Source: Candidatus Aquicultor sp.
Lineage (GTDB): Bacteria; Actinomycetota; Aquicultoria; Aquicultorales; Aquicultoraceae
Direction: 5' to 3'
DNA: 34,321 nucleotides
Assembly (NCBI GenBank): GCA_030682615.1
Contig: JAUXNY010000069.1
Location: 1-34,321, forward strand
Positions within the stretch are counted from its first letter, which is position 1. Each line of letters begins with the position of its first letter. Made by a program: the position numbers and the translations under genes. The notes under the pieces are model-generated. The model did no database searches. It was given only the letters and a program-made list of their open reading frames with translations, and had not been told where the DNA came from. Positions 1-26,200 of this stretch are shown here, piece after piece.

Positions 1-46
1 TAATGGTACGAGGATGAGATAAGCGATACGATAGTACATCGCTCAA

Positions 47-709
47 TCAACTCTTTTTGGCGAGGCCGATTATTTCCTGTACTACCTGGCCTATCGTCTT
101 CTCTGTGGTGTCGACGACGTATGCATCGGCCGCTTTTGCCAAGGGTCCGGTAGCGCGTGTGCTATCGGTCTTGTCCCTTTTGAGGATGTCTCGTTCAACC
201 GAGACGACCTCTATCCGGTGGCCTTTTTCTTTCAGCTCGCGCTGGCGGCGTTTAGCCCGCTCGCCAGGCAAGGCCTGGAGGTATATCTTAATGTCCGCGT
301 CGGGAAAGACGGCCGTGCCGATATCGCGTCCTTCGACTACCATGTTCGGGTAGATGTCCGCATAGCCTTGCTGTTTTTTAACGAGCGTGGCGCGCACGCC
401 CGGTAGCTTCGCGACCGACGAGACCGCCGCGCTCACCTTCGGCTCCCTGATGGCCTCAGTCACGTCTTCGCCGTCTATCGTGACTGCGTAACGCGTGTCC
501 TCGAGTTCGCTAATGGTAATCTCCGCATGTCTTGCCAGGACCGTTAGCGCGTCCTCGCTCGATATGTCGACCTTATCGCGGAGCGCTTTCCAGGTAACCG
601 CCCTGTACATCGCTCCCGTATCAATATACTTAAAGCCGAGGCGTTTCGCCACTTCCCGCGCTACTGTGCTTTTTCCAGAGGCCGCCGGCCCATCAATCGC
701 TATAATCAT
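47..709 (-). CDS. cmk: Cytidylate (CMP/dCMP) kinase
   Basis: Cytoplasmic nucleoside monophosphate kinase that phosphorylates CMP and dCMP with ATP. The protein opens with the family P-loop GPAASGKST directly after the first beta strand (IIAIDGP), followed by the substrate-binding YIDTGAMYR and the conserved VEGRDIGTAVFPDA segment. The length of 220 residues fits the family. An upstream ATG at 721 would add four residues; neither start has a clear ribosome binding site, and I prefer 709 because family members usually begin just before the IAIDGP strand. In many Gram-positive genomes cmk lies directly downstream of aroA. Here aroA lies about 29.5 kb away on the same strand, with the defence block and other genes between. 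Confidence 0.93.
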   Translation of the reverse strand: MIIAIDGPAASGKSTVAREVAKRLGFKYIDTGAMYRAVTWKALRDKVDISSEDALTVLARHAEITISELEDTRYAVTIDGEDVTEAIREPKVSAAVSSVAKLPGVRATLVKKQQGYADIYPNMVVEGRDIGTAVFPDADIKIYLQALPGERAKRRQRELKEKGHRIEVVSVERDILKRDKTDSTRATGPLAKAADAYVVDTTEKTIGQVVQEIIGLAKKS

Positions 710-763
710 GCTTAATATCATAGCAAATCGAGATATCCATAGCTATGGGGCTTAAGAACACCC

Positions 764-785
764 TGAAAGTCATCGTAGACTTTCA
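764..785. other. 8-bp stem-loop between res and cmk
   Basis: A perfect inverted repeat, TGAAAGTC and GACTTTCA, with a 6-base loop lies in the 111-base gap between the res stop and cmk. It could end or attenuate the transcript of the defence block, but no run of T follows on either strand, so a standard intrinsic terminator is not supported. Confidence 0.35.
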
Positions 786-832
786 ATCTTTCAATAACGA
801 TGGCTGCTATTGCCGTCCGGTGCAGCGCCTTA

Positions 833-3526
833 TTATATTTTCTCTTTGTATTCCCTGAAGCCATCATCCAATTGCCGGAACGAGGCGGGTTTGTATTTTT
901 CAAAGCTCTCTTCGTCCACGTAAACGAAGTCGTATTCCACGTCTGCCTGCACCCGATTGATGTCTTCGCACCATTGGCGCAGCCGCTCCAGCTTCAGCGG
1001 CACGTCCAGGTCTTCCTGTCCCTTGGTTTCGACAATGAATATCCGCTTGGCGGACAGCTTGACCAGAAAATCCGGATAGTAGTTGGAAATCTCGCCGGCG
1101 GCGTTCACGTAATCCAACTTGAAATGCACCGCCAGATAATTCTTGGCGTATGAAACCACATCGTCGCAATCCTCCAGAAAGCCGGCAAACAACAACTCAA
1201 AACGGCTATCCCCGATGATGCGGTTGAAAACGCTCTTTTTCGGGATGAGGTAGCCCTGGTCCTTGGCCACAAAGGGGCGCGTCTGCCGTAGCTTGATGGT
1301 GTCGCGAATTTCGGCGTCGCCTTTGTCTTGCACGGTCAGCGCGTTGATCGCCTTCTTAAACGTCTCGATCAAGGTTTTAGTAGCGGCCAGTTCCGAGAGG
1401 TTTCGCAATGTATTCGGGTCTTCGAGTTCCACCGCGCGGTCAAACAACTGCTCTTGCACAAACGCCTTGACCTTGGCGTACAGGACATCGTAGCCGCTGA
1501 CCAGCCGCAAATCCTTCATCATAGTCTGCGCGAAGTAGCCGATCACACTGCGATAGTCGGCAATGCCCGCCGTGTCGAGAATAGTGGTATGCGTCACCTC
1601 GCCGGTAGTAATGTCCTTGAAGACGATCTCCCGTTGTTCTTCCTCGCTGAACTGTCGATATGCCACGCGCTGATGCCCCTGCGCGCCTACATCCAGCGCG
1701 CTCAAGTTCTTGTATTCCCGGTAGACACGCGGCGTCAGCACCGGGATTTCAATATCCAGCGCTTCAATATCTTTCTTGATGTTTTCCTTATCGATCTCCA
1801 CCACCAGAGGGGTTTTGGCTTGCGTGCCTTCGCCCATCGGTTTGCGCTCCAGCACCACACCTTCGGCCTGGATGGATTCTACGAAATCCATAAAAGCATT
1901 GGTGCCGACCACGCTGACGTATTCTTCCACACCGCCGGGATACATTTTGCGCAAGCCGCGTCCCAGGGTCTGTTCGGGTAAAATGTTGCTCTTGGCGGAA
2001 TAGGCGCGCAAGCCGACGATGGTGGTGACGTTGCGCACGTCCCAACCCTCTTTGAGCACCATCACGGAGATGATGGCCTTGCAGGGGCTGTCCAACCCGT
2101 CAATCGCGTTGGCTTGCTCGCGCAGCTTGTTCAACGCTTCTTTGCTCTTGCCTGACGTTGATTCAGAAATCTCGCCGTTGCTCTTGGTGTGAATGACCAG
2201 CACCGCGTCGCCCTTCAGGTCGGGGTAGTGCCCCCTCAGGTACTCGGCCACATCATCACAATTGCGGGTGTCGTCGGTCATCACGAATAGGATGGCTTTC
2301 TTGCCCATTTTTTTGTGTTCGTCATACGCCTTGCGCCACTCGACCACGCCCAGGTGAATATAGTCGGCGTATTTCTCGGTGTATTTGGCGCTCTGGCGCT
2401 CCACCAGTTTGGCGCGGCTGGCGGCGTCGGGCAGCACCGGATGCTTGACCACGTTTTGCGAAATGGCTTCCACCAGCGGGTAATCGGCGACGGTCTGCAC
2501 GAAGATCGCGCCGTTGTTGTGTTTGGGCGTGGCTGTCACGTCTATTTGCAGGGCGAGCGCGGACCCCTTTTGCTTCAGCCGGTTGTGGATGTCCTCGATG
2601 GATTTGAACCAGGCCATGCGCGGGTCGTGAATATGGTGCGCCTCGTCGTTGAGCACCATCAGTTCGTCAATGTCGCGCACAATCATGCCCAAATCTACTT
2701 TGGAGTCGGTGGTCGCGCCGCTGGGCCGCTTGCCCAGGAAATAGTCCATCGTGTCTTCATCATCGGGCGAAGCGGGAATGTCGTCGCCGGCATAGACGCG
2801 GTGGATGTTGGTCAGAAAGATGTTGCCGGTCGGTCGGGTTATGCGCACTTCGTCCTGCACGTGCAGGGTCAGTTGAAAATCGTCGCGCCAGTTGCGCCCG
2901 TCCACGCCGTTGTCGGGCAAGACCGGGTCGTCTTTCAAAAAGATACGGAGTCCCTGAAAATCCTTATAGATACGATCCAGAACTATGATGTTGGGGGCGA
3001 TCACCAGAAAGTTGCGCGCCAGTTGCGACTCCGGCTCGTACAGTTTGTGATAAAAACTCCAGGCCAAAACCAGACTCAGCACCTTCGTCTTACCGGAGCC
3101 GGTCGCCATTTTCACCACAAAGCGCCGCCAGGTCTCGTCAAACATGCCGGCGGAGACCGCGCCGGAACCGTCAAAGCGCATCAGGTCGAACTTGTCCTTT
3201 ACCCCCACCGCGTCGTACAGGTAAATGATGGTTTCCAGCGCCTCGCGCTGGGCAAAGTAATACTGGAACTCGGCCATCGTGCCGTCGGCCTGGGTCAGCA
3301 GGTGTGGGGTGTTGAACCACCAGTTGAGCAAGCTATTGCTCGTGTTGGTCGCGCCGACGTAGCCGCTGTCCCGCCATTCTTTCACCTTGCGGCGCAGCTG
3401 CGACACCAGCGGCGGCATCAGCTTTTCAGAGCTTGACTCCCGCAGCGCTTCATCCGCCGGAAACCAGCGGATATCCGGGTCGAGAATGGCGTAGGGCGAT
3501 TCGGGAAAGTTTTTATGCAGGGCCAT
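833..3526 (-). CDS. Type III-like restriction enzyme, Res subunit (DEAH helicase plus PD-(D/E)xK nuclease)
   Basis: ATP-dependent restriction subunit of 897 residues, expected to work with the methyltransferase encoded upstream. Visible superfamily 2 helicase motifs in order are Walker A ATGSGKT (about 141-147), NDEAHH (293-298), VTATPK (about 333) and QTLGRGLRKM (about 530). A C-terminal nuclease core follows: YYPDF with D819, then VETKG with E833 and K835, matching PD-(D/E)xK. All motifs needed for ATPase and nuclease activity look intact. The start codon overlaps the stop of the GIY-YIG gene as TAATG, which suggests translational coupling. It is the last gene of the minus-strand defence block. 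The Res label rests on motif order and on the neighbouring Mod; the helicase could also belong to a related defence nuclease family. Confidence 0.85.
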   Translation of the reverse strand: MALHKNFPESPYAILDPDIRWFPADEALRESSSEKLMPPLVSQLRRKVKEWRDSGYVGATNTSNSLLNWWFNTPHLLTQADGTMAEFQYYFAQREALETIIYLYDAVGVKDKFDLMRFDGSGAVSAGMFDETWRRFVVKMATGSGKTKVLSLVLAWSFYHKLYEPESQLARNFLVIAPNIIVLDRIYKDFQGLRIFLKDDPVLPDNGVDGRNWRDDFQLTLHVQDEVRITRPTGNIFLTNIHRVYAGDDIPASPDDEDTMDYFLGKRPSGATTDSKVDLGMIVRDIDELMVLNDEAHHIHDPRMAWFKSIEDIHNRLKQKGSALALQIDVTATPKHNNGAIFVQTVADYPLVEAISQNVVKHPVLPDAASRAKLVERQSAKYTEKYADYIHLGVVEWRKAYDEHKKMGKKAILFVMTDDTRNCDDVAEYLRGHYPDLKGDAVLVIHTKSNGEISESTSGKSKEALNKLREQANAIDGLDSPCKAIISVMVLKEGWDVRNVTTIVGLRAYSAKSNILPEQTLGRGLRKMYPGGVEEYVSVVGTNAFMDFVESIQAEGVVLERKPMGEGTQAKTPLVVEIDKENIKKDIEALDIEIPVLTPRVYREYKNLSALDVGAQGHQRVAYRQFSEEEQREIVFKDITTGEVTHTTILDTAGIADYRSVIGYFAQTMMKDLRLVSGYDVLYAKVKAFVQEQLFDRAVELEDPNTLRNLSELAATKTLIETFKKAINALTVQDKGDAEIRDTIKLRQTRPFVAKDQGYLIPKKSVFNRIIGDSRFELLFAGFLEDCDDVVSYAKNYLAVHFKLDYVNAAGEISNYYPDFLVKLSAKRIFIVETKGQEDLDVPLKLERLRQWCEDINRVQADVEYDFVYVDEESFEKYKPASFRQLDDGFREYKEKI

Positions 3527-3900
3527 TAGTTACCTCTTTCTCGTATTGCACCATTGTCATCTCGACCTTTTTCTTTGTTGTCATCTCGACCAAAGGGAGA
3601 GATCTCAAACCACCCATCACTCAGATCCTTCCACTCAGAATTGACGGTGACAACCAGATTGTTTTTCTTCTCGCGACGCCATTTCTTGATTTCCTTTTCC
3701 CTGGTTAGAGCGGTGTGGACATCCTGCGTTTCCTCGAAGTAGACCAGCTTGTTCACGTTGTACTTTTGCGTAAAACCCGGAATCATCTTCGTCTTGTGCT
3801 CATACATCCGCCGCTCAAGATTGTTGGTTACGCCGACGTACATGACCTTGTCGTTCTTGTTCGTCAATATGTATACGTAGTAGCGATGCTCTCTGGGCAT
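3526..3900 (-). CDS. Small GIY-YIG family nuclease
   Basis: Single-domain nuclease of 124 residues. The N-terminus carries the variant GIY-YIG pair YYVYIL and YVGVT, then NNLERRMYEHK with the conserved arginine, and REKEIKKWRR further on, as in the YhbQ/UPF0213-like small GIY-YIG proteins. Its role in this locus is unknown. The last roughly 30 residues, from EISPFGRDDN onward, are encoded by a repeat-like sequence and probably are not part of the fold. A second, inverted copy of that repeat lies immediately upstream of the ATG and supplies a GGGAG ribosome binding site 7 bases before it. The stop overlaps the res start as TAATG. It sits between mod and res, where a type III system normally has nothing, so it is probably a later insertion. 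Confidence 0.8.
   Translation of the reverse strand: MPREHRYYVYILTNKNDKVMYVGVTNNLERRMYEHKTKMIPGFTQKYNVNKLVYFEETQDVHTALTREKEIKKWRREKKNNLVVTVNSEWKDLSDGWFEISPFGRDDNKEKGRDDNGAIRERGN
3579..3606 (+). repeat. 28-bp REP-like repeat, copy at the 3' end of the GIY-YIG gene
   Basis: This 28-base element starts TGTCATCTCGACC and ends GAGATCTC. It matches the reverse complement of 3901-3928 at 25 of 28 bases, so the two copies bracket the GIY-YIG gene in inverted orientation. A truncated extra copy (TGTCATCTCGACC) lies at 3555-3567. From memory, similar sequences are dispersed repeats in many environmental genomes; that part is not checked here. Confidence 0.7.
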
Positions 3901-3928
3901 GAGATTTCTCCCTTCGGTCGAAATGACA
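3901..3928 (-). repeat. 28-bp REP-like repeat, inverted copy just before the GIY-YIG start codon
   Basis: Read on the minus strand it starts TGTCATTTCGACC and ends GAAATCTC, directly followed by the ATG of the GIY-YIG gene. Its internal AAGGGAG serves as the apparent ribosome binding site. It differs from the 3579-3606 copy at three positions. Confidence 0.7.
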
Positions 3929-3941
3929 CATGATGCTTATC

Positions 3942-4124
3942 TCATCGCCTTGGACGGATATCTTCTCTGCCATTACGCATTTCCTGTTCCTGGTTCCAAA
4001 CCCCTCGAATTCGAGGGGTTTGGAATTCGTGTTGTTCATTTGCTCCTATTCTAATTGTGGCGAATTCGCCGCAATTTAATCCCGTCGAATTCGACGGGAT
4101 TAACATGATGAAAGTGTTCGCCAT
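3942..4124 (-). CDS. Possible 60-residue ORF coupled to mod, overlapping three palindromes
   Basis: The ATG overlaps the mod stop codon as TAATG and opens a 60-codon frame ending in REDIRPRR. I recognise no domain. The same stretch holds three long palindromes with GAATTC at the centre. The palindrome cores fall in different codon phases (PSNSTG, CGEFAT and PRIRG), so the DNA symmetry rather than the peptide may be what is maintained. An alternative 74-codon frame starts at 4039 behind an AGGAG. Coding status is uncertain; this may simply be a repeat-rich spacer. Confidence 0.3.
   Translation of the reverse strand: MANTFIMLIPSNSTGLNCGEFATIRIGANEQHEFQTPRIRGVWNQEQEMRNGREDIRPRR
3994..4025. repeat. 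32-bp perfect palindrome centred on GAATTC
   Basis: Left arm TTCCAAACCCCTCGAA is followed without spacer by its exact reverse complement, giving 16 of 16 pairs. It can form a strong hairpin in RNA or a symmetric protein site in DNA. It is the first of three palindromes in the mod to GIY-YIG spacer. Confidence 0.9.
4053..4076. repeat. 24-bp imperfect palindrome centred on GAATTC
   Basis: Left arm AATTGTGGCGAA pairs with the right arm at 11 of 12 positions; the single mismatch is 4058/4071. The centre lies 55 bases from that of the first palindrome. It abuts the third palindrome at base 4076. Confidence 0.8.
4076..4103. repeat. 28-bp perfect palindrome centred on GAATTC
   Basis: Left arm TTAATCCCGTCGAA is followed without spacer by its exact reverse complement, 14 of 14 pairs. 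It begins 20 bases beyond the mod stop codon in the direction of transcription. It shares the TCGAATTCGA core with the first palindrome but has different outer arms. Confidence 0.9.
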
Positions 4125-6319
4125 TATTTCTTCCCTCCCACGGTAACCTCGACAATGGTCATCGTATCGTTGCCGAAGATATCCACCACTTTGACCGCCA
4201 CCTTGCGCCGCCCCGGTATGCATTCGTGAAAGACGCTGGTCAATTCCAGCGAGCGGTCTTTCTTGGTACGGAAGGATTGCCACTCGTTCTCAAAGATGTA
4301 ATCCCCAGTCCAGCGCTCTTCCCATTCGCCGCTTTCTTCGTTCTTCACGCGGACAATCTCGCGCTTGCTCTCGAAGTTGAAATCCACCGCCCAGTAATCA
4401 ATCCAGTCCGTCCACTTCTTGGTGAGCGTCTCGCGGCTGACAATGCCGTCCTTGTCCTTGCTCACCTTCACGATCTGCCCCTTCTCTACTACGATCTTGC
4501 TGGCTTTGTCCTTGAGCGACGCTTCGGCGGCGGCGATGGAATCCTGCGAATAAAAGACCGAGAAGTCGGTCAACTCCACCGCCACGCTGTTCTTCTTGAC
4601 ATGCGGCTTGACCTCGATAGCCGCCACATCGTGGAAGACCACCTGGTTCTTTTCCACCGCCCGCTTGTCGAACACCTCGGCGGGGATGTACTTGGGGGCG
4701 ATGTCGATGCCTTTGGCCCGGGCTTCGTCCAGCACGTTGGGGAACAAGCCCATCTCGAACTCAAAGCCCAGAATGTCCACGCGGGTGATGTGCTTCTTGC
4801 GGCATTCCAGGATGACCTCTTCCACGAACAGGCGCGTCACCGGCAGGTTGACCGGCCCCACCGCCACCAGCCGCCCGGCCTTTTTGCCGTGGAAGGTGTT
4901 AAAGCCCTCGGTCCTTTCGGCGCGGTAGGCGCGCAGGATGAGGTCAACGAAGGCGGCTTCCTTTTCCGCCAGTTGCTTTTGCTGTTCCGCTTCGCGCAGA
5001 TTGGGGTTGACGCCGATGTAGTGCTGGCGCTCGTACTTGCCCAGGTTGAGGATTTCGAAGGCGCGGTAGTCCTTGCCTTCTTTTTTGAGTTGACGCTGAA
5101 CACCGATCATGCGCTTGCGAGTGGTGTGAATGGCGAACTTGCCCAGGTCGCTCACAATCCACTTACGCCGCAACTTTTCCGCCACTGCCGCCATCGTGCC
5201 GGAGCCGCAGAAGAAGTCGGCCACCAGATCGCCTTCGTTGGACGAGGCTTTGATGATGCGTTCGAGGAGGGCTTCCGGTTTTTGGGTGGCGTAGCCAGTA
5301 TCTTGAATGGCTTGAGAGTTTACGGGTGGAATATCTGTCCAGAGTGTATCGACGAGAACACCCTCAATATCATCAAGATAAATTTTATATCTATATTTTC
5401 CACCAGACGTAATTATGAGTTTGTTCTCAGACTTTAGTCTAGAAAGGGTCTGCTCTGAATAAGTTGCAAGCTCGGCATCTTTGTAATATCCCTTATCATC
5501 CCTTTGTTTGAATCTTTTTTCGATCTCTTCTTTTGGATATTCAGCAAATGTTTTGTTAAAAATGCAATTCGATGATTTTGTAAAATAGTAAATTGTATCG
5601 TGATCTGCGCTATATTTTCTTGCCCTTGCTTTACTGCTGCTTGGCGACTGTCTTTTCCAGATTAATTCATTCTGAAAGAAGCTCTTCCCAAAAACTTCAT
5701 CCAAAACAAGTCGCATAAATCCTTGTACCCGCCAATCGCAATGCACATAAATGCTGCCTTCCTCCGCCAGCAAATCCCGCATCAGCACCAGCCGCTCGTA
5801 GATCATGGCGATGAAGCTGTCCGCGCCCTTGCCCCAAGTGTCGCGGTAAGCGATCTCCTCCAGAATGTTGGGCTTCTTGGTGAAGGTGTCGCCGCCAATC
5901 TCGATGTCCATGCTGAAATCCGCGCCCACATCGAAGGGCGGATCAATGTAGATCAGCTTGAGACCGCCTTGCTTCTCGATTTCCTCGCGCAGCGGGCCGT
6001 TCTTCAGCGATGAGAGAATCAGCTTGTTGTCGCCCCAGATAAGCTTGTTGGTCCACCCCTTGAGCTGGCGTCCGCGCTCGTCCAGGTCGAACATGCTCAT
6101 CTGCAAGCGGGTGTCCTTCTCGGCACGCGGCTCATCCACCTGCTCGATCACCTGAAAGGGCAACACGATATTGCTGACCTCGCTCGACTTGCCGTTCCAG
6201 ACAAGCTCCACCTCGCGTTTATCCTCAAACAGCAGAAAACGAAACTTGTCCGGCAGCGGTTTGTCCGCCTCCAGAAAGCGGATAATCTCTTGTTGTTCCT
6301 GTTCAGTCAGTCGTGGCAT
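4124..6319 (-). CDS. Type III-like site-specific DNA methyltransferase, Mod subunit
   Basis: SAM-dependent DNA methyltransferase of 731 residues that both recognises and methylates the target and would guide Res. The catalytic motif DPPF lies at 126-129 and the SAM-binding FCGSGT at 370-375, with [11 protein letters not shown] at 345-355 just before it. This order (catalytic motif first) is the beta class typical of type III Mod proteins, so N6-adenine methylation is likely. The stretch between the two motifs is the expected target-recognition region, and there the DNA turns AT-rich: about one third GC over 5341-5640, against about 60-65% in sampled flanks. This suggests a swapped specificity domain. 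The start is 13 bases after the gajB stop, so it is probably co-transcribed with the Gabija genes. Lysine-rich N- and C-terminal extensions are unassigned. Confidence 0.88.
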
Positions 6320-6332
6320 AATAGTTTATTCC

Positions 6333-8162
6333 TTACAGCGTCTCTAGAAATCTCGATATCTTTCTGGATTTGTAATCACCCCACGGCATTAATCTTTTTT
6401 CTGGCCAAGTAACAAAAAGAAACCGCTTAGAGCGGGTAAATGCTACATATGCATTGTTCTTTTCCTGCTCCAACTCTGTACCACCGTTTTTGATAGCCCG
6501 ATAATCAGGAAATGTTTCATCGTCCATCCCCATTAGAAAAACAATATCATATTCTTGACCCTTCATGGTGTGTACGGTACTAAGGGTTATGCCATTTGGT
6601 TGAGCCAATGGATGCGTTTTGCCAAGTGCCATTGAATTCTTAAATTGTTGCAAAGATTTCTTGTTCGCTTTCTTCGCATATTGGTACCAATGCTCCAAAA
6701 GTTCTTTGATATCATTCAGTATCATACCTTTTTCATTTTCGTCTTCGATAATGTTTTCAATTACTTGCGAGAGAGTTCTTAGGGAAGCTTTTAAATTGCT
6801 ACCATCGGCACTTAGCCCAATTATTGTACTTAGGATTTCTTTATATTGTTTCTCGGTTGTAGTATTGAATAGTTCCGATAAATTCTTGGCTCCTTGATTA
6901 CCAAGCAAATCAATTAGTCTAAACCAATGCAACGTATCGTGCGGGTTTAGTTTAACCCGAAATGCCATATCAAAAATGTTCATCAATTTCGATTCGAATT
7001 TAATGGCACCGGGGGTAATTTTATAATAGAAGGGCAGCCCTTTAGCGTTAAGGCTTTTTGTCAAATGATTGAATACGTACTTATTCCTAGCAAGCACTGC
7101 GATTTTTTCATAAGTTATGCCCCCCTCTATATCATCATGATTGCCCAAACTGACAAGTTTCTCGATTTTCTCAGTGATCCATGTTGCTTCTGATTCTTCA
7201 TCGGCCAATTTGTGCATTTCAAACATACCTTCAATGACAGCATTAGCAATGTCACATGAGTCTGGTATTATTTTTTGCGCAGCAAGCAAAACGCGTTTTG
7301 CGGAACGGTAATTCTCTTTCAATTCAATAGTCAATGGCTGATAATCTTCAATGAACATTTTGGTCATGTATTCCGAAGATGAGCCGTTGAAAGCGAATAT
7401 TGACTGATTGGGGTCACCTACCATCATAATATTACTATGCTCACCCATGGTTAGAGCTCTTAAAAGTTGATATTGAGCATAGTTCAAATCTTGTGCTTCA
7501 TCAACGCAGATGTACTCATAAGTCCTACGGTATAAGGCAGCTATCTTCGGATTGGTTGTAAAAAGATTATATGTCAGCAAAATAAGATCATCAAAGTCTA
7601 TTGCATTCTGAGAGGTTAAAATATCTTGGTATGAAGAGTAGAGCAGAATAAGGTCTCTATCGGCGTTATCCTTTTGTAAGCTTTCTTCTGTTGAAAGCCT
7701 GCGCTTTACCTCAGAAATGAAATTCAATGCATTATAGCAAAGTTGCCTTTGTTGTTTGGTATCTTGTTGTTTATAAATATATAGATAACTTGGGGTTTGT
7801 TGAATTGCCAGTTCTACTAATTTGAGTCGGTCGGTTTCATCCTCAAAAATATGAGGAATCTCGGGGAAACCGATCAATTGCCCGTGACTTTCAAGCACCT
7901 GTTGACAGAAACCGTGGAACGTACCAACAAAGAGTCGGGTAGTTATATCGGGTAGATCCCCAATTCTTGCTTTCATTTCTTCGGCTGCTTTATTTGTAAA
8001 GGTAATTGCGAGTATCTTTCTTTTAGTTAGATCGCAAAGTCTTTTAATTCTTTCAGTGAGAACCCTTGTTTTTCCACTGCCAGCACCAGCTTTTACTAGA
8101 ATGGCGCCACGGTCAAAAGTAACGATTTGTTGCTGAATAATAGATAAATTAACCTTACTCAT
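6333..8162 (-). CDS. gajB: Gabija protein GajB, UvrD-like superfamily 1 helicase
   Basis: Helicase subunit of 609 residues, forming an anti-phage Gabija complex with GajA. UvrD/Rep motifs appear in order: KAGAGSGKT (24-32), AITFTNKAA (52-60), VGTFHGFC (79-86), CVDEAQD (219-225), GDPNQSIFAFNG (249-260), KENYRSAKR (282-290), STVHTMKGQEYD (about 527) and AYVAFTRSKR near the end. In Gabija, GajB is thought to sense or unwind DNA ends and so release GajA activity. The start ATG overlaps the gajA stop by 8 bases (ATGAGTAA), strong support for the pair. It is longer than the roughly 500-residue GajB of the Bacillus reference system. The codons are AT-rich compared with mod and res, which points to separate acquisition. 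Confidence 0.88.
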   Translation of the reverse strand: MSKVNLSIIQQQIVTFDRGAILVKAGAGSGKTRVLTERIKRLCDLTKRKILAITFTNKAAEEMKARIGDLPDITTRLFVGTFHGFCQQVLESHGQLIGFPEIPHIFEDETDRLKLVELAIQQTPSYLYIYKQQDTKQQRQLCYNALNFISEVKRRLSTEESLQKDNADRDLILLYSSYQDILTSQNAIDFDDLILLTYNLFTTNPKIAALYRRTYEYICVDEAQDLNYAQYQLLRALTMGEHSNIMMVGDPNQSIFAFNGSSSEYMTKMFIEDYQPLTIELKENYRSAKRVLLAAQKIIPDSCDIANAVIEGMFEMHKLADEESEATWITEKIEKLVSLGNHDDIEGGITYEKIAVLARNKYVFNHLTKSLNAKGLPFYYKITPGAIKFESKLMNIFDMAFRVKLNPHDTLHWFRLIDLLGNQGAKNLSELFNTTTEKQYKEILSTIIGLSADGSNLKASLRTLSQVIENIIEDENEKGMILNDIKELLEHWYQYAKKANKKSLQQFKNSMALGKTHPLAQPNGITLSTVHTMKGQEYDIVFLMGMDDETFPDYRAIKNGGTELEQEKNNAYVAFTRSKRFLFVTWPEKRLMPWGDYKSRKISRFLETL

Positions 8163-9921
8163 TTGCGCTCCTACTTATTAAAATAGCCTCAAGCTTTTCA
8201 AAAAGTGCTACAATTTTCGGCGGCAATGGCTTGTTGCTTTCAATAATAGCTTCTGCTATTAAAGGTCCGAATTGCGCTTTTGAGCCTTCTATTATACTCA
8301 TAATCTTTGCATTGTCATATGCTGCAATTTCTTTCTTTTTTGCTTTCATATGTTGAGGTGTAGAACATTTAGAGATTTCTAATTTTACTATTGCTACCCG
8401 AATTTCATCAATATAACCGTCGTCTACTAATTGTTTCTCGAAATTATTGCCATCCGACAAAAAGACAATGATATCAACTTCCTGCTCGGCTGATTTGCAA
8501 TCAGTAAATTGTGATCTCACACTGGTCTTCACGTTAGCCTCTGCATCACTGAATATGAACCATGGGATTTTTAGAGATTCTGCAACTCGTAAAAAAGGCA
8601 GATAATTTCCACAACCACCAACACCAACAAAATCTATGCCTGCCTCTACATGGCTTACCTTAAAAAAGTGCTCCGCAAAGATCGGCAAGGCTTGCTCTTC
8701 TGTTTCACCCTCAAAAAATATAATGACTTTTGAAAAGAATAATTCACCGCGCGTATTTACAACATGTCTTTCGATCTTTCTAATATCTTCTGGAGTCAAT
8801 AACTTTGTATTGATGGCACCACAACAAACGGATTCATCATTTTTATAAATATTTCTTAGCTGGCGTAGCTGCGCAGACGATGCAATATAAGGCGAATGTG
8901 TTGAAATAATTTTCTGTCCTTCGATACTATCAATTTGGTTATATAGCTTTTTCTGTGCATTAGGGTGAAGATGTGCTTCAGGTTCTTCTATTGCAAGGAT
9001 AGGGAAAAATGGAGTTTGTTCTTTTATAGCGCCCTTATCTCTTAGATTGATAAATGCTTTTAATGTAAGCAAAGACGACCAACTCCGAGTACCCATACCA
9101 TGGTACTCCATAGGGAAACTTTCCTTGTTGTCACTGTAGGAAATGTTTATGCCTTTATTTAAATCGCGTATTTTCTTTGTAAAAGGCGTAATTTCAACAC
9201 CCTCGCTTTTTGTATCCATTGCTGAATCTAACTCTTTTAGAGTTGCCTTAATGTTTACAAGAATGGAACTACTGTTTACAGCTTTCTCGTTCAATTCTTT
9301 TATCTGGTCTTCAATTAACTTTATATCTTCTTCTGAGTATTCTATCTTAGAAATCATTTTACCAAAATATGAACTCCTCATTTTCATGTCTTCGAGGATA
9401 TCCCGCTGTGCATCCATGTAGTAAAATGGAACTTCATCGAAATGAAAAGTCCTTTCTTTGCCATTGCTGCCTTCATACCAAAGTTTATGCTTTGCATCTT
9501 CAAATTGTGGCCATTCTGGCAAGATATATTGCCTCGTTTTATAGCTGGCAGCGATTGGGTCATATGTCACAATAGTCCGCAGCGGTATTGAAGAATTACT
9601 CTCAACATCAATCATTATCCTGTCTTCCGTAAATAGCACTTCCCAATCTGCATCAAAATCTGCACAATGTACGCCATCTTTATCTACCGGCACTATTTTA
9701 ATGTCAATTATAATTTTGGGGGCACTATTATTGTCTTTAACATTGAAATCATCTTGGGTAATGAATTGTGAATTGCCTAATGCAATCTGCATCGCTTTTA
9801 AGAATGATGTTTTACCAGTATTGTTCATACCGGTTAGAACTGTTGTTGCTCCAAGTTCTACATGTATATTCTGTAGACCCCGGAAATTAAAGACTCTTAC
9901 CTGCTCAATTAAGATGCTCAT
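8155..9921 (-). CDS. gajA: Gabija protein GajA, OLD-family ATPase and TOPRIM endonuclease
   Basis: ATP-regulated DNA endonuclease of 588 residues, close to the 578 of reference GajA. The N-terminal ABC-type ATPase shows Walker A GMNNTGKTSF (31-40), a signature-like GMGTRSWSSLL (275-285), Walker B with AIEEPEAHLHP (310-320) and the STHSPY switch (340-345). The C-terminal TOPRIM nuclease shows FFEGETEEQA (402-411), GVGGCGNY (433-440) and FSDAEAN (457-463). The conserved acidic residues for metal binding appear present. The start has AGAGGT six bases upstream. It lies 78 bases after the stop of the Rad50-like gene, so it may be co-transcribed with it or use its own promoter; no convincing promoter is visible in that gap. 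The DNA is AT-rich, for example about 25% GC over 9301-9360. Confidence 0.9.
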   Translation of the reverse strand: MSILIEQVRVFNFRGLQNIHVELGATTVLTGMNNTGKTSFLKAMQIALGNSQFITQDDFNVKDNNSAPKIIIDIKIVPVDKDGVHCADFDADWEVLFTEDRIMIDVESNSSIPLRTIVTYDPIAASYKTRQYILPEWPQFEDAKHKLWYEGSNGKERTFHFDEVPFYYMDAQRDILEDMKMRSSYFGKMISKIEYSEEDIKLIEDQIKELNEKAVNSSSILVNIKATLKELDSAMDTKSEGVEITPFTKKIRDLNKGINISYSDNKESFPMEYHGMGTRSWSSLLTLKAFINLRDKGAIKEQTPFFPILAIEEPEAHLHPNAQKKLYNQIDSIEGQKIISTHSPYIASSAQLRQLRNIYKNDESVCCGAINTKLLTPEDIRKIERHVVNTRGELFFSKVIIFFEGETEEQALPIFAEHFFKVSHVEAGIDFVGVGGCGNYLPFLRVAESLKIPWFIFSDAEANVKTSVRSQFTDCKSAEQEVDIIVFLSDGNNFEKQLVDDGYIDEIRVAIVKLEISKCSTPQHMKAKKKEIAAYDNAKIMSIIEGSKAQFGPLIAEAIIESNKPLPPKIVALFEKLEAILISRSANE

Positions 9922-9999
9922 TACAAGACCTCTATATGTTTGACTATACCCGAACCTTTATTTGCAAAGTATCCCTACTATGACGCCAGTAACACCTGC

Positions 10000-12633
10000 T
10001 TACAGTGGAACAACAGCAGCCTCCCCAATAAAAGCATATCTTTCAGGAACACAGGTAAAAATGACAATTTGACATTCCTTGGCAGCTACCGCCAATACGG
10101 CGCCCATCAATTTCAGACGCTCCTGGTCGGTATAACCCAGCGCATCATCCAAAATGACCGGTGTTCCGCCATCCTTTGCCACTATCATGGAACACGACAA
10201 CCGGTACATCAAAGAAAGTTGTTCTCTTGTACCCCCGCTGAGGGAATCGAAGGGGACCGTGACACCAGAGACCGTTCTGCTGGTAATTTTCAAATCATCA
10301 CCAATAGTCACCTGGAATGAAGGGTCAAAGACCAAACGACCAAGTCTTTCAATTTTATCTTTAAGCGGGGCCACATACGCGCGACTCGCCTTGTCCCGCT
10401 CTTCGCACATGGTATCAAAAAGGTATTTGGCCGCATTGGCTCTGAGTGTGGTCGCCCGGTTTTTGAACTCCAAATGTTCAAGTTGATTCTCGGCCGCGTT
10501 TAATTTTTCGTGAAGGCCCTCTTCGCCCATTATTTTAAGACGGGTTTGGAGTTCTATGAGTCCCTTGTCTCTTGAATCATGACTATTTCTTATCGTTTTC
10601 AAGGAACCTTTGGCGGAATCTTCCAGGGCTTTTACCTGTTCAGGGTTGAAAGCCTTTAAAGAGTCTGTGGCTAAACGGTATGCAGTATCTTCTGAGAGCA
10701 CCGCCATATTGGCAGCGGTCAGGTTGGTTTCCAGTGTTTCGTCAGATTCTTTCTTGCGGCCCTTATCGAGGTTTTCTTGAGTCTGTTTGAGATCTTTACT
10801 CAACTGCTCAAGTTTTGCCCCGGCTTCCCTGTGTTTTATATTTACACCTTGGAACAAGGAGCGGGCAGACTCGAGAGCCTTACGCGTATTGTCCAATTCG
10901 CCACTTGCAGTCTGAGAATTCGCTTCGGCCTTTGTCCATTCCTCTTTTGACGTGTCGAAATCCGGGCAAATCGCGGGGTCTTTAACGCGCCCGACAAGGT
11001 AGTTCGGCACGCTCTGCTGGAGACTATGCAACCTATGTTCAAGGCTTTCGTAAGTAAGGTCCCTAAGGTTTTCCTTCTCGACCCGAACTTTGTTATCAAC
11101 ATCCCGCAATGCCTCTTGGCGTTCGTCATACGCTTTTCTGGCTTCGTCCGGGCCTGCCACAGTGGCGGCGGCACAGGCGGCGTCGAGGGCATGTCGAGCG
11201 TCTTCAACCTTTCGGGTAAGCCCTTCTATGCTGGAGCCTGCGGTTATTTCGATATCAAGGGTTCCCGGAATGGACACGGTGGTTCTATCTGCGACAGATA
11301 TTTTACGGACTTCATTAGTATCGAGTACAGCCTCTATACCGTCAATGGAGAGGCGACATTTGGAGATGGAACGAAGGAGAATATTTGGTGAACCTATTTC
11401 CATCCGCGCACAGGCGTTCTTATAACCGAGTTCAGCTTCCTTTATCCTGTCTAAGGCACCGGCATCCACCTTGTTCTTCGCCAACACCGTCTCTGCCTGG
11501 GCGGCGTCTCTACGGGCCTCGTCAATTCGTTGTTTTCGTTCGAACAACTGATCCATGTCAAGCTTGTCACGATAATAGTCGAAATCCGCCCTCTTCAAGG
11601 CGGCAAGAGATTCCGCTTCCTTCCTTTTTCTTTCGGCTTCGTCGGCCGCAACCCTGGCTTTATTGAGGGATTCCTCGGCCTGAGACAAAGCCGGCAGGGC
11701 CATTGCACTACTTTCTTGAAGTTCCCTGTGTGCCTTGGCAGCGTTCTCTGCCGTGATTATCGTATCCTGACGGATTTTTTTGGCGCCCTGAGCCGCCTGA
11801 AGGGTTTTTTGAGCGGACTCCAGTTTTAAAGCGGCCGCGGACTGAGTGTTTTCGAGCGAGCTAATTTGCTCAAGCTTCGCGGTGAGGTCTATCAGCTGTT
11901 GAGATAGTGCTTCTTCCTGCTTCCTGAGCTGGGTCAGCTCCCGTTGCAATACAGGGACACGGTCGATATCGGTTTCGAGTTCACGGATGGCCTGTTCAAT
12001 CAACCCAACCTCAGTCCGCTTTTCGGCCAGGGTGTTCCGCAAGTCTTGGAGTTCCTTCTTCTCGGTCCCACGACCAATCGTATAGTAGAGTTCATATTCC
12101 TGCGAAACCCTTTTGAACAAACTGAGCTCTTGCGGGGCGGCCGGATGAACCCCTGCCGCCTTGTCGAGCGCCGCAGACAATGCCTGCTTGTTTTTAAGAT
12201 CCGGTTGGCCAATCGCCTCACCCTGCATAATAGACAAGGCCTTCCATAAATCGACATCGAGTGTTTCTTTAAGAATTTCATTCGCCCGGTCATGCGCCTG
12301 GCGACCCGTGAGATTTTCGGGGTTCGGTTTTGAAATAGTAAGCTTGGTCTCAGGCTTTTTTAAGAATCGCTTGAAATATGTAAACACATATTTGCCGGTT
12401 TCCATTTCCAGTTCAATTTCAGGGCCCACATCTTTATGAACAGGCTGGATGGCTTGAATGTCTTGGTTTTTGCTGTTGTCCTGGTAGTCAAAAATCGTGT
12501 TTATGGCCTCTCCGAGACTGGACTTCCCCGACTCGTTCGGGCCTTCTATGCGGGTAATCCCCAGGGGACTAAATTTTACCTCGCGTGTATTAATGCCACG
12601 GTAATTGACAACCTTGAGACGAAGGAGCTTCAT
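10000..12633 (-). CDS. Rad50/SbcC-like coiled-coil ATPase
   Basis: SMC-type ATPase of 877 residues, expected to form an ATP-controlled nuclease complex with the phosphoesterase encoded just upstream. Walker A EGPNESGKSSL lies near residue 30. Long charged heptad-like coiled coils fill the middle, interrupted by a beta-rich insert around 395-450. At the C-terminus are the ABC signature LSGGTREQLSL (about 798) and Walker B PVILDDALGYTD (about 825). The zinc-hook position has only a single cysteine, ICPDFD at about residue 556, rather than CxxC. I chose ATG 12633 because it overlaps the previous stop as ATGA and follows AAGGGG; a GTG at 12639 is also possible. Bacterial YhaN and SbcC are relatives; which is closer cannot be settled here. 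Confidence 0.8.
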   Translation of the reverse strand: MKLLRLKVVNYRGINTREVKFSPLGITRIEGPNESGKSSLGEAINTIFDYQDNSKNQDIQAIQPVHKDVGPEIELEMETGKYVFTYFKRFLKKPETKLTISKPNPENLTGRQAHDRANEILKETLDVDLWKALSIMQGEAIGQPDLKNKQALSAALDKAAGVHPAAPQELSLFKRVSQEYELYYTIGRGTEKKELQDLRNTLAEKRTEVGLIEQAIRELETDIDRVPVLQRELTQLRKQEEALSQQLIDLTAKLEQISSLENTQSAAALKLESAQKTLQAAQGAKKIRQDTIITAENAAKAHRELQESSAMALPALSQAEESLNKARVAADEAERKRKEAESLAALKRADFDYYRDKLDMDQLFERKQRIDEARRDAAQAETVLAKNKVDAGALDRIKEAELGYKNACARMEIGSPNILLRSISKCRLSIDGIEAVLDTNEVRKISVADRTTVSIPGTLDIEITAGSSIEGLTRKVEDARHALDAACAAATVAGPDEARKAYDERQEALRDVDNKVRVEKENLRDLTYESLEHRLHSLQQSVPNYLVGRVKDPAICPDFDTSKEEWTKAEANSQTASGELDNTRKALESARSLFQGVNIKHREAGAKLEQLSKDLKQTQENLDKGRKKESDETLETNLTAANMAVLSEDTAYRLATDSLKAFNPEQVKALEDSAKGSLKTIRNSHDSRDKGLIELQTRLKIMGEEGLHEKLNAAENQLEHLEFKNRATTLRANAAKYLFDTMCEERDKASRAYVAPLKDKIERLGRLVFDPSFQVTIGDDLKITSRTVSGVTVPFDSLSGGTREQLSLMYRLSCSMIVAKDGGTPVILDDALGYTDQERLKLMGAVLAVAAKECQIVIFTCVPERYAFIGEAAVVPL

Positions 12634-13757
12634 GCGCACCCCTTGGAAAGGCGGAGAAGGAGCATGAATGCATCGCGGGCAACGGAGCCTTCAGGCCCAC
12701 CCTGGTCTATTTTATCCCGAAGCCTTTTTACCGTTGCATCGGCAAAGCCCGAAAAACCAAGATCGGTGAAGTCCGTATCATTGGGAATCACAAGGAGGTT
12801 GTCTTCGTTGATCACCGAACCCGCCAAGACATCCTTGGCTGCAAGAAGGTGGCTTTGAAAAACCCCGTGCAAAGAAAGTGTGAGCGAACCCTTAAGGTCC
12901 AGTTTGACAGCTGCCCGTTCCCTGTTCGGGATGTCTTCCAGCTTTTTCCGCAGCGATTCCACATCGTCTTCGGTATTCAGGTCCATTAGCGCTTCTATAA
13001 AACTCCATTGTCCAATTTTCACTTCTTCGGTGGAGACATCATCGCCATCCATATTAACAATTTGACAGAACCCTGAATGGTCTTCGCGGAAATCGGTGGA
13101 TTCGGGGGTCCCTGAATACCAGATTCTATGGCCAGAACCCACTTTCGTGAGGGAATGGCGATCGCCTAAAGCTATAAAATGGACCTTGCCTTCCGAAATT
13201 GCGGCTTCAAGCTTGGAAACCGCAATCACATTTTCTGCTTCTTTATCTGGAGTAAATATGTCAATAATACCATGCCCCACACAGATACGCTTTATACTCC
13301 CTGCCGGAGGAAGCGCATTGAGCAAATCAACAATTGGGTTGCCGTTCGGCCGTTTAGACAGCCAAGGGGCGCCTACCAGTTCGAAACCCTCGCCCACTTG
13401 AACAGGAGCCGTGTCCTCGATGATCTGGACATGGGCCGGTTTCTTTTCTACGAAAGTGCTGGAGCGGTAAACGGAAGCCGCATTCAAGGGGTCATGATTA
13501 CTGGGAAGGAGATAAACAGGAACCGACACTTCTTTGAGTGCTTCGATTGCCCGTGCGACGGTTTTACGGTCCACTTGGTTTGACTCGAAGGAATCGCCGC
13601 ACACCAACATAAACTGACATTGTTTTTCTTTGGCAATACGGCCCATTGTTCGAATAGCATCAAACCGCGCCTGAGTATAGCGCGCATGGGCCTCTTCCGA
13701 AAGGAAGCGGCGGGTCATACCCAATTGCCAATCGCTGGTATGAAGGAACCGAATCAT
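12630..13757 (-). CDS. Mre11/SbcD-like metallophosphoesterase
   Basis: Calcineurin-like phosphoesterase of 375 residues, the likely nuclease partner of the Rad50-like ATPase. The metal-binding motifs are recognisable but altered: TSDWQLG has Q11 where SbcD has histidine, CGDSFE supplies D55, SNHDP supplies N87-H88-D89, VGHG supplies H162, and LGDRHS has D199 where SbcD has the first histidine of GHxH. The remaining ligands are present, so activity is plausible with a different metal site. It overlaps the ATPase gene by four bases (ATGA), a strong sign of a two-protein complex. It is the first gene of the minus-strand defence block. No strong ribosome binding site or promoter is visible upstream. 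Confidence 0.82.
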   Translation of the reverse strand: MIRFLHTSDWQLGMTRRFLSEEAHARYTQARFDAIRTMGRIAKEKQCQFMLVCGDSFESNQVDRKTVARAIEALKEVSVPVYLLPSNHDPLNAASVYRSSTFVEKKPAHVQIIEDTAPVQVGEGFELVGAPWLSKRPNGNPIVDLLNALPPAGSIKRICVGHGIIDIFTPDKEAENVIAVSKLEAAISEGKVHFIALGDRHSLTKVGSGHRIWYSGTPESTDFREDHSGFCQIVNMDGDDVSTEEVKIGQWSFIEALMDLNTEDDVESLRKKLEDIPNRERAAVKLDLKGSLTLSLHGVFQSHLLAAKDVLAGSVINEDNLLVIPNDTDFTDLGFSGFADATVKRLRDKIDQGGPEGSVARDAFMLLLRLSKGCA

Positions 13758-13960
13758 GGGTTTATTCTTTCGTTTAATTTATTGAGAAACTATGGATCCA
13801 TATAATACGCTAAAGATACTATGAGTGCCGTATCAGATGCCTGCGTCAAATATCGCTTCCCGTCATAACCAATAATATATCAAGCGGTTGAGTTACGGTA
13901 CTGTTTTTATCATGGGTAAGGGGACGTACATCGACTATATCGGATTCCAGCTACGCGATG

Positions 13961-13997
13961 GGAAGCGAAAATCGGCTAAATCCGATGCCCGTCCCTT
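13961..13997 (+). repeat. Direct repeat flanking the relE locus, left copy
   Basis: This 37-base sequence begins GGAAGCGA and ends with AAATCCGATGCCCGTCCCTT, which is identical in the right copy at 14740-14776; 32 of 37 bases match overall. The left copy lies inside a 34-codon plus-strand frame (13912-14016) without a ribosome binding site, which I read as repeat-derived rather than a gene. Confidence 0.75.
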
Positions 13998-14010
13998 GAA
14001 GAGGGTCGTT

Positions 14011-14118
14011 TTATAAGTCATCCGGTGTAAGCCCCGTACGCTTAGCGATTCGCGCAAGCATGCGAGGTCCAATTTCTACTGTATTCAATTCCATCCACAT
14101 GGACAAGTCCATCATCAT
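14011..14118 (-). other. 35-codon frame after relE, possible gene tail
   Basis: A frame opening with three consecutive ATG codons and ending RTGLTPDDL lies 23 bases beyond the relE stop. The composition looks protein-like and the frame stays open upstream into relE. No ribosome binding site is visible. It may be the 3' tail of a gene destroyed when the toxin-antitoxin pair arrived, or a chance frame. Confidence 0.25.
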
Positions 14119-14739: not shown

Positions 14740-14776
14740 GGAAGCGATGACCGACCAAATCCGATGCCCGTCCCTT
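14740..14776 (+). repeat. Direct repeat flanking the relE locus, right copy
   Basis: Right copy of the 37-base repeat, 779 bases from the left copy and in the same orientation. The last 20 bases are identical in the two copies. Confidence 0.75.
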
Positions 14777-15453: not shown

Positions 15454-15810
15454 TTCATACTCCTTTATTAGGCTCTCACAAACTATATTGTAGTTGGATG
15501 TAGCAGCATCGTATATATGATTAAGGTTTGGCGACAATGATTGCTGCTGCAGATGGAATGCATCGGCGGAGCCAGAAATATTACGAATCGCGATTCCACG
15601 CTTTTAGGATAGGCCATGATGGTTTGCGCTGGTAGCAAGTTGGGTCGTATCCGGCACTCGCTTGCTAATCTAGGCCTTAAACTGCTTGCGCATTATAAGT
15701 GGTGGTGATACTTTTCTATTATGCTTACCGCAATCACATGGCGTCACTAACAACTTGGTGTCACCGAGCCGTTACTTTACATCGTACTAATTTATGAAGA
15801 GGTGGTCGTT

Positions 15811-26100: not shown

Positions 26101-26199
26101 CTCGCCGATGAGCTGAAAAAGGGTGAGTTCAAGCCGAACAAAGACGCCGACTGTCGATTCTGCCCCCTCCCCCATATTTGCAGAAAGGGGCGTGCGTAG
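23119..26199 (+). CDS. addB: AddB-type subunit of the ATP-dependent recombination nuclease
   Basis: Subunit of 1026 residues of the AddAB helicase-nuclease that resects double-strand breaks for RecA-dependent repair. The C-terminal nuclease shows RGVIDRID and AVIDYKS (the PD-(D/E)xK core). Four cysteines form the iron-sulfur staple: C751 (FLRCPF) and C1012, C1015, C1021 (CX2CX5C), the same spacing as in Bacillus AddB. The N-terminal nucleotide loop is GPAQSGKK, lacking the Ser/Thr after the lysine of a normal Walker A, so ATP binding here may be weak or lost. A proline- and glutamine-rich linker covers about residues 258-304, with no counterpart I know in AddB. addA follows after one base. 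Confidence 0.85.
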   Translation: MSLNVIIGPAQSGKKEALLKLFIENIGSNPLLVVPSTPEAHYIRRELLRLSGAIIGAEVVTYSRFIDDLAARAALTQRRINNTQQKYIVQHVTAATELTALAKSSQYPGFYEAIAGFFNELTEGMNSPEATAKAFAEWGKTRSRGADYLGDIGGLYRAYMDKLEQLDVLTEQLLRWEIVRALESGEVSEARPIFMYGFDDFTTSQRRIVELLSVDTDITFTLTYEDTAAFESRKDAVMTLLENASSVIEAHSLTSGLRPALHPSQPSSESQPPQPPNQAQTSSANNIQQPAQPPQPSQPIAPQEITYLAAAGERGEVELAGIKILELLGSGKYRPDEIVVILRDPVLYSRSLVQVFEDFDIPYSLNEPLPLRYSALGRAIHALTRFAYEGGANADLVTYLRIRYPDLQEAADDFERSIRLGKITDPQAMPAEWSRISDTRDSKVEALLSATGLSAAIPLILDIAADALQVILEQGARFKLNRGEGRGNLFTFEERASIEAFTIIKRLLTSIEQLKAIDGSFEPQLLELPPMLAQSNIRLGREAEAGKVHVFRVHRARGRLYKAAFVLGLNEGRFPKALREDPFFNREERRQLAALGLEIMTRDDSVAEERYLFYVATTRATEKLYLSYQRVDNDGDELLKSSFISDFEAALSDSGRAGATIKRPLSSIIFDGVSLPIPNTKEALRYAASEYQARPEFAREISDSVERRTDLEDAASCAPTPTPAFQGEEALDELAGKDTFSVSELESFLRCPFKWFVEKKLKPQDFETELDARIKGSIYHTTLERFYRALPEKFGESMPVKEKLPEMEMFIVELLEDVFTAESPDTTSVNARFTKHEMSENLKRLIRAEAARPSPFTPRYFEAKFGMPDEIGNPGSREERLSLGEGVYMRGVIDRIDTDDRGRAAVIDYKSNKISGANDLAKGKSLQLQVYAMAASELFGLTPAMCAFVSIAKTRIDGMYNSDILERAPLPKNAARNSEDFEAILGNARETLIGLADELKKGEFKPNKDADCRFCPLPHICRKGRA

Positions 26200-26200
26200 A

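Follow-up and report, generated by a model that had tools for sequence, protein, structure and literature searches.

The stretch of DNA analysed here (the window; 34,321 nucleotides of contig JAUXNY010000069.1, assembly GCA_030682615.1, Candidatus Aquicultor sp.) contains two overlapping minus-strand genes for an SbcD/Mre11-like phosphoesterase and an SbcC/Rad50-like ATPase. Sequence comparison places this pair in a separate, apparently uncharacterised Mre11-Rad50-like family that lacks the zinc hook. The pair stands at the head of a defence block, as a sequence-only reading of this DNA had proposed, and is followed by a Gabija system, a methylase, a GIY-YIG protein and a BPTD_3080-like restriction endonuclease (REase). 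The minus-strand order is sbcD, sbcC, gajA, gajB, methylase, GIY-YIG and REase genes, then cmk. The features are:

12630..13757, minus strand: SbcD/Mre11-like phosphoesterase, 375 amino acids (aa), with DxQ (Q11) and GDxH (D199)
10000..12639, minus strand: SbcC/Rad50-like ATPase, 879 aa from a GTG start, with no CxxC, Walker B DD and an H-loop Cys
8155..9921, minus strand: GajA, OLD-like ATPase-TOPRIM nuclease of Gabija (PADLOC PDLC00067, 726 bits)
6333..8162, minus strand: GajB, UvrD-like helicase of Gabija (PADLOC PDLC00132, 769 bits)
4124..6319, minus strand: N6/N4 DNA methylase, type III-like (PDLC03633, 366.6 bits)
3526..3900, minus strand: GIY-YIG nuclease-domain protein (PF01541, 1.5e-18)
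833..3526, minus strand: ResIII helicase, BPTD_3080-like REase (253 bits, under the family cut-off of 800)
748..14116, no strand: island not present in the congener G060, where the flanking matches lie 4 bases apart

The sbcD and sbcC genes overlap; an in-frame ATG two codons past the GTG would still leave the sbcC start overlapping the sbcD stop. The intergenic distances are 78 nucleotides (nt) between sbcC and gajA, 13 nt between gajB and the methylase gene, and 223 nt between the methylase and GIY-YIG genes. Adjacent GajA and GajB, recognised by Pfam (PF13175, PF20469, PF00580) as well as by PADLOC, identify the Gabija system. The REase has a sub-threshold TnsA-like match at its C terminus. 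AddAB-like genes are located in the same window (23119-29662).

Residues, fold and phylogeny of the pair

The nuclease has DxQ for DxH and GDxH for GHxH, at Q11 and D199, exactly where the sequence-only reading had put them. In phmmer alignments to 1ii7 and 4lty, Q11 aligns with the His of DxH and D199 with the first His of GHxH; the alignments are weak, with scores of no more than -3.8 and 4.0 bits for the stretch containing D199. Residues D9, D55, N87, H88, H162 and H201 are kept in the window nuclease and, like D199, are invariant in all 19 aligned family members. In a 68-row alignment the canonical bacterial rows have H at both positions (32/32). Groups QD, QH and HD were defined by residues 11 and 199, and the alignment adds that each residue falls in a single column. 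All QD and HD rows have D at position 199 (27/27); position 11 is Q in 22/22 QD and 2/2 QH rows and H in 5/5 HD rows.

The structural model of the nuclease, with a mean predicted local distance difference test score (pLDDT) of 71.9, has a predicted Mre11 fold. Among the structures listed by VIA-align 2, the first 39 of the best 50 matches are Mre11/SbcD chains (Z 24.6 to 20.2), and other phosphoesterases come next at Z 19.0 or less. The model aligns with 3tho_B at Z 24.6 (root-mean-square deviation 5.0 over 306 residues) and with 4lty_B at Z 24.4 (3.2 over 274). A separate structure search gave a best E of 9.6e-15. The SbcD subfamily model TIGR00619 matches only residues 3-96, at 41 bits against a cut-off of 77.65. 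The C-terminal domain SbcD_C (PF12320) has no match in the window nuclease at E 0.001; the E. coli control scores 68 bits.

Comparison with SbcCD and Mre11-Rad50 (E. coli SbcD 4lty and 4m0v, P. furiosus 1ii7, T. maritima 3tho) reveals a shared Mre11 fold over model residues 1-314, the same two-gene order, and a Rad50-like ATPase with long predicted coiled coils. Unlike SbcCD, the window pair has DxQ, GDxH, Walker B DD and an H-loop Cys, and lacks an SbcD_C match and a CxxC.

For the first tree 73 rows were selected and 68 used, the short or split ones being dropped. It contains a 36-row family clade (support 99/95) and a GDxH clade (97/88). E. coli SbcD, the genome's own ordinary SbcD and three others form a separate five-row clade (100/99). 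A six-row clade with locus L134 (100/99), named YhaO-like from the AAA_27 match of the L134 partner protein, excludes the window nuclease, which therefore lies inside neither. In a phage-extended tree, with eight near-duplicate rows dropped and seven phage rows and L200 added, the same 36-row-type clade (97/95) and GDxH clade (92/83) were found, and ordinary SbcD was split from the window's family with support 96/95.

The second, canonical SbcD of this genome, a 2.14-Mb draft, has the motifs DLH, GNHD and GHIH and is encoded on contig C95 beside a HerA-like ATPase. The contig stops at this point, which is why the draft yielded no sbcC partner for it. A pair inside ordinary SbcCD in a genome with no other sbcCD is hence not what we see. 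Of the proposal that this is a specialised branch and not housekeeping SbcCD, the placement outside ordinary SbcCD stands; the ligand and hook changes do not serve as a sign of defence.

In the first tree the four states of positions 11 and 199 need four changes. DxQ comes first, as seen in the two QH rows, and GDxH follows. Q11 reverted to H in L052 and also in four related rows; D199, once gained, was kept throughout. Five SbcDs on viral contigs (L136, L138, L147, L148, L157) also have GDxH, and two of them DxQ as well. They occupy several tree positions near ordinary SbcD, some on long branches, so the GDxH/DxQ change arose more than once, and its separate recurrence in phage SbcDs suggests a working variant site. 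Among the window, L046 and L047 the ratio of nonsynonymous to synonymous substitution rates is 0.15-0.24; judged by this ratio, the pair is kept under purifying selection.

The SbcC-like protein had been read as carrying a broken zinc hook. It does lack CxxC, but the CPDF cysteine is not the remains of one. This cysteine, residue 558 in GTG numbering, is one of eight in the protein and occurs in 3/25 aligned full-length family members, namely the window, L046 and L047; since it is limited to these closest relatives it is no hook relic. CxxC is found in 0/25 full-length members, which rules out decay of a zinc hook. In a wider 32-row set two rows contain CxxC; both are split-gene pieces (L048, L081). 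The coil breaks near residues 412-465, where the sequence is judged by eye to be non-helical and, in the rows inspected, similarly beta-looking. A low-confidence model of the protein (pLDDT 44) has no helix at 424-468 and long predicted coiled coils.

The ATPase motifs, previously called intact, are so in part. Walker A (GPNESGKS) and the signature LSGG are present, and the Walker A Lys is kept in 25/25 full-length rows, but Walker B and the H-loop are altered. Walker B reads LDDA, with Asp for the catalytic Glu in all 25 rows (LDEGFG in E. coli SbcC; DD in L134). The H-loop reads TC; the residue is Cys in 23 of the 25 rows, Ser in one and Ala in one, and His in E. coli SbcC (ISH) and L134. 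The AAA_27 model (PF13514) matches residues 3-49 of the window ATPase at 21.1 bits, just under the cut-off of 22, and only the first 48-56 residues of L051, L209, L046 and L052 at 22.3-35.3 bits. In L134 the match reaches 219.9 bits over residues 2-203.

The L134 pair, from an Aminobacter plasmid, is called YhaN/YhaO-like from this AAA_27 match. It shares Walker B DD and a defence-island setting with the window pair. It differs in its nuclease motifs (DVH and GHIH), in the H-loop His and in an AAA_27 match of 220 bits over some 200 residues. At the same locus (L134 2917-16805, pANY103c) the pair occurs with close relatives of the window methylase (74%) and REase (84%), with a further AAA ATPase and hypothetical genes in between.

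A closer relative is the pair of a Tsukamurella plasmid, L051, at 38% identity, which shares with the window DWQ, GDRH, the absence of CxxC and the gene order. Unlike the window, L051 has no Gabija in its stretch, and the window branch is separate from it. Pairs of the L051 type are annotated as 'exonuclease SbcCD subunit D / AAA family ATPase' (an actinobacterial pair). M. tuberculosis Rv1277-Rv1278 is presumably of this type.

Genomic settings of the family and the island

Matches to the nuclease at E 0.001 were found in 132 of 396 Actinomycetota genomes, many of them weak and canonical. Strong matches occur in 28/81 genomes of one actinobacterial family, distributed by genus with one genus mixed. 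In the host's own family the nuclease is present in 2/11 genomes, the host itself and G083.

The neighbours of the pair were scanned at seven hand-picked loci (ten open reading frames, ORFs, in partly GC-rich DNA where ORF calling is unsure). The neighbours include shikimate dehydrogenase and CbiX at L064, a solute-binding protein and two ORFs without a match at L068, an SDR protein at L077, a DUF3891 protein at L067 and a YchF-like GTPase at L062; no defence family was found at these five loci. At L128 (7243-13582) a full-length match to a Shango SngC-like helicase (881 bits) adjoins the pair on the opposite strand. At L090 (4204-10045) a NERD-helicase gene, of a kind found with reverse-transcriptase systems, adjoins it on the same strand. 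At L051 a gene for a ZorD/DpdE-like helicase lies upstream of the PIN gene that precedes the pair. The family therefore occurs in both defence and ordinary settings. The ligand changes were rejected as a mark of defence; they are family-wide and are found in ordinary chromosomal settings too. What marks the window branch is its spread between phyla and its Gabija neighbours.

This branch comprises eight rows, including L018, with support 100/100 and a stem of 0.42. Copies 86-95% identical are present in metagenome-assembled genomes (MAGs) named Nitrospirae, Smithellaceae, FCPU426 and Aquicultor and in one unclassified MAG. Three of the five are incomplete: those of Smithellaceae and FCPU426 are partial, and that of Aquicultor is interrupted. 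Two further copies, at 54-55% identity, come from the order of the Smithellaceae MAG. A phage origin of the branch was considered and rejected, as none of 43 viral-contig relatives exceeds 37% identity in its best segment; the phage records give one weak match (22%). In the Aquicultor locus L050, sbcD is immediately preceded by some 67 bp (3195-3261) similar to the 5' region of the methylase gene, as if two island genes had recombined.

The island of about 13 kb is absent from three congeners. In G060 the matches to window positions 1-747 and 14117 onwards are separated by 4 bases. G020 lacks window 748-13914 and has 0.7 kb of different sequence in its place; the absent segment in G351 extends to window 15671. 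No match to the nuclease was found in G020, G060 or G351. The island ORFs scanned have no Pfam match to an integrase, and no target duplication was seen in the junction stretches compared.

The order pair, cargo, methylase, REase is common to the window and L046. The pair, methylase and REase as one fixed system is weakened by two other loci: L135 (Sinorhizobium) has the methylase and REase with no match to the pair in 30 kb, and L124 has GIY-YIG and REase without one. The sbcC 3' end, or the DNA behind it, is duplicated in L048 (5738-5884) and L047 (12046-12131), with cargo between the copies, so the spot behind sbcC looks like a point of repeated entry. The duplicated sbcC-end region is a possible entry site for defence modules.

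Several further features were observed in and around the island. A ParE-like toxin gene at its edge is flanked by a 37-nt direct repeat, 86% identical (window 13961-13997 and 14740-14776). An 848-aa ORF (window 15802-18348) without a Pfam or PADLOC match precedes an Lgt-like gene; it is 86% identical in G060, and 91% over 494 residues in G351. The gap between the methylase and GIY-YIG genes contains three palindromes centred on CGAATTCG (window 3994-4025, 4053-4076 and 4076-4103). Two are perfect, of 32 and 28 bp; 20 mononucleotide shuffles give on average 0.05 perfect ones per window. A 24-bp core of the first (3994-4025) recurs in L046 (19629-19654), within a KilA-N ORF, and another palindrome lies 3' of gajB in L047 (16633-16660). 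Across the genome the CGAATTCG pattern is no commoner than its control. SbcCD-type enzymes cut palindromes.

Proposed function and alternative explanations

We tentatively propose, as a quite possible reading, that the pair is a DNA-end nuclease recruited into defence, probably alongside Gabija, a coupling that we infer. As a Mre11-Rad50-type complex it would bind DNA ends and cleave them in an ATP-gated manner. Its dimetal site would be active with one oxygen-donor substitution per metal, the assignment of each ligand to a given metal being what we take from Mre11 structures. The coiled-coil arms could join through the tip in place of a zinc hook. The branch complex may then attack linear or protein-capped phage DNA ends as a defence component, and the pair and Gabija, encoded in a single cluster, could share a substrate; this host also has AddAB-like genes.

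Published observations on DNA ends bear on this proposal. According to PMC6265447, E. coli SbcCD uses ATP to cut DNA about 20-25 bp away from an end blocked by protein, and it trims free ends. The phage protein TelN is described in PMC12624138 as shielding phage hairpin ends from Mre11-Rad50. A preprint (PMC12407980) proposes that Gabija acts on linear DNA where phage end-binders exclude RecBCD, and that its rule for self and non-self depends on the occupants of DNA ends. Because phage end-binders would license Gabija and SbcCD cuts near blocked ends, the two might have a common substrate. The weak point of the argument is the passage from gene neighbourhood to mechanism. Our literature search returned no paper on Gabija with Mre11 and Rad50; among the titles and abstract starts listed none joins Gabija with an SbcD/Mre11-like pair, which is not to say that none is in print. 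In PMC12342005, Gabija and SbcD/Mre11-type words both occur, in separate passages.

The link rests on the position of Gabija, which lies 3' of the pair in the window, L047 and L209. These are 3/7 branch loci, against 0/25 other loci of the family (Fisher p 0.007, in a post hoc test on related loci, a point against the proposal as well). Loci were searched with GajA and GajB models from ten loci and had to have at least 2.4 kb of downstream DNA. Five of 37 were set aside for short downstream DNA (L063, L076, L089, L127, L133), and L049 and L050, with no downstream DNA, were outside the count. A comparison of 3/3 with 0/11 was discarded, the three loci having been found through the pair. The three GajA proteins belong to three subfamilies, 22.8-25.5% identical in the main local alignments. 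The proposal is also in keeping with the invariant ligands, the predicted fold, the trees, the low substitution-rate ratio, the spread of the branch, the absence of the island from congeners and the defence genes adjoining the more distant members L090 and L128. At L209 Gabija starts 138 nt 3' of the pair, in an island that also includes a type IIG-like enzyme, GmrSD and AbiE genes.

Several observations weigh against a link between the pair and Gabija. The GC content of gajA and gajB (0.37-0.38) is unlike that of the pair (0.50), which suggests a separate origin or entry of Gabija here; the methylase and REase genes are at 0.53-0.56. At L047, gajA is about 1 kb from sbcC with a yhcG-like remnant between them. 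The other branch loci lack Gabija: L046 carries PIN-YhcG-RelA/SpoT, then methylase, KilA-N and REase; L048 a Zeta-like kinase and a YhcG-like fragment; L210 glucokinase and transketolase genes with the PADLOC candidate PDC-S01 about 6 kb off; and L062 a YchF-like GTPase gene 1.8 kb past sbcC. Moreover, sbcC of L048 reads in two frames. Conversely, an SbcD-like gene occurs in 0/7 sampled genomic Gabija loci, within the stretch compared, and is unlisted in 4/4 plasmid Gabija loci, where annotation is incomplete; one of the plasmid loci has Wadjet genes upstream. Island genes are often passengers, and MAG bins may misassign hosts. Finally, the SbcC model, given its pLDDT of 44, was not used for the tip fold.

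A less probable explanation is that the pair serves general repair of DNA ends and rides in defence islands with no role in defence, its adjacency to Gabija reflecting only the frequency of Gabija and the clustering of island genes. Relatives with the same residues have conserved neighbours around the pair in two actinobacterial families, presence follows genus lines in one such family, and some members are on contigs of 4.5-6 Mb. The ordinary metabolic surroundings at L064, L068 and L077, the ordinary genes beside L210 and L062 within the branch, and the occurrence of methylase and REase (L135) or GIY-YIG and REase (L124) without the pair are also consistent with it. However, defence or toxin-like genes are next to the pair in 5/7 branch loci (window, L046, L047, L048, L209), Gabija is confined to the branch in the above count, and near-identical branch copies are present in several phyla.

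It is unlikely that the pair is instead a stand-alone anti-phage or anti-plasmid system with a Lamassu-like logic, in which the Rad50-like part would sense ends or replication structures and the nuclease would cut, Gabija and restriction-modification being separate. The overlapping two-gene operon, the differing cargo (Gabija, PIN-YhcG-RelA/SpoT, Zeta-like) and the defence-type helicase genes that adjoin the pair at L128 and L090 or lie near it at L051 are in line with such a system. A precedent is Lamassu, whose LmuB is, like the window ATPase, a Rad50-like ATPase in a defence setting. PMC10586767 describes some LmuB without a hook, an altered LmuB Walker B (Glu to Gln) and a length of about 650 aa, shorter than the 879 aa of the window ATPase. 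Against it, other family members are found among ordinary genes, and PADLOC models give no match to the nuclease and only weak ones to the ATPase (AriA 44 bits; LmuB 37.4 bits, residues 1-94). Neither LmuA nor LmuC is among the PADLOC matches listed for ten window proteins.

Very improbable is an inactive nuclease in a complex that only binds, tethers or signals DNA ends. In its favour, two histidine ligands are replaced, and the altered Walker B (Asp for Glu) and H-loop (Cys for His) could slow ATP turnover. Against it, none of the other ligands varies, phage SbcDs have acquired the same changes, and in two lineages Q11 has gone back to H with D199 retained, as expected of a tuned, not a decaying, site.

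We speculate further that sbcD, sbcC, gajA and gajB could form a four-gene composite, which is doubtful. With its different nuclease, ATPase and tip, the variant complex would be immune to phage inhibitors of ordinary SbcCD or RecBCD; it would clip or strip phage proteins capping linear DNA ends and so license or complete Gabija action on that DNA, and the pairing would have been rebuilt at least three times, with different Gabija subfamilies.

The pair is, on the comparisons made here, more than an ordinary SbcCD, but the signs by which the sequence-only reading recognised this are traits of the whole family. What is new is the set of ATPase changes, the convergence seen in phages, the absence of the island from congeners and the threefold Gabija neighbourhood. 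The hookless family offers natural material for finding which of the dimetal, ATPase catalytic, H-loop and tip features the machine needs. The threefold placement of the branch before different Gabija systems connects DNA-end processing with Gabija in a way that can be tested.

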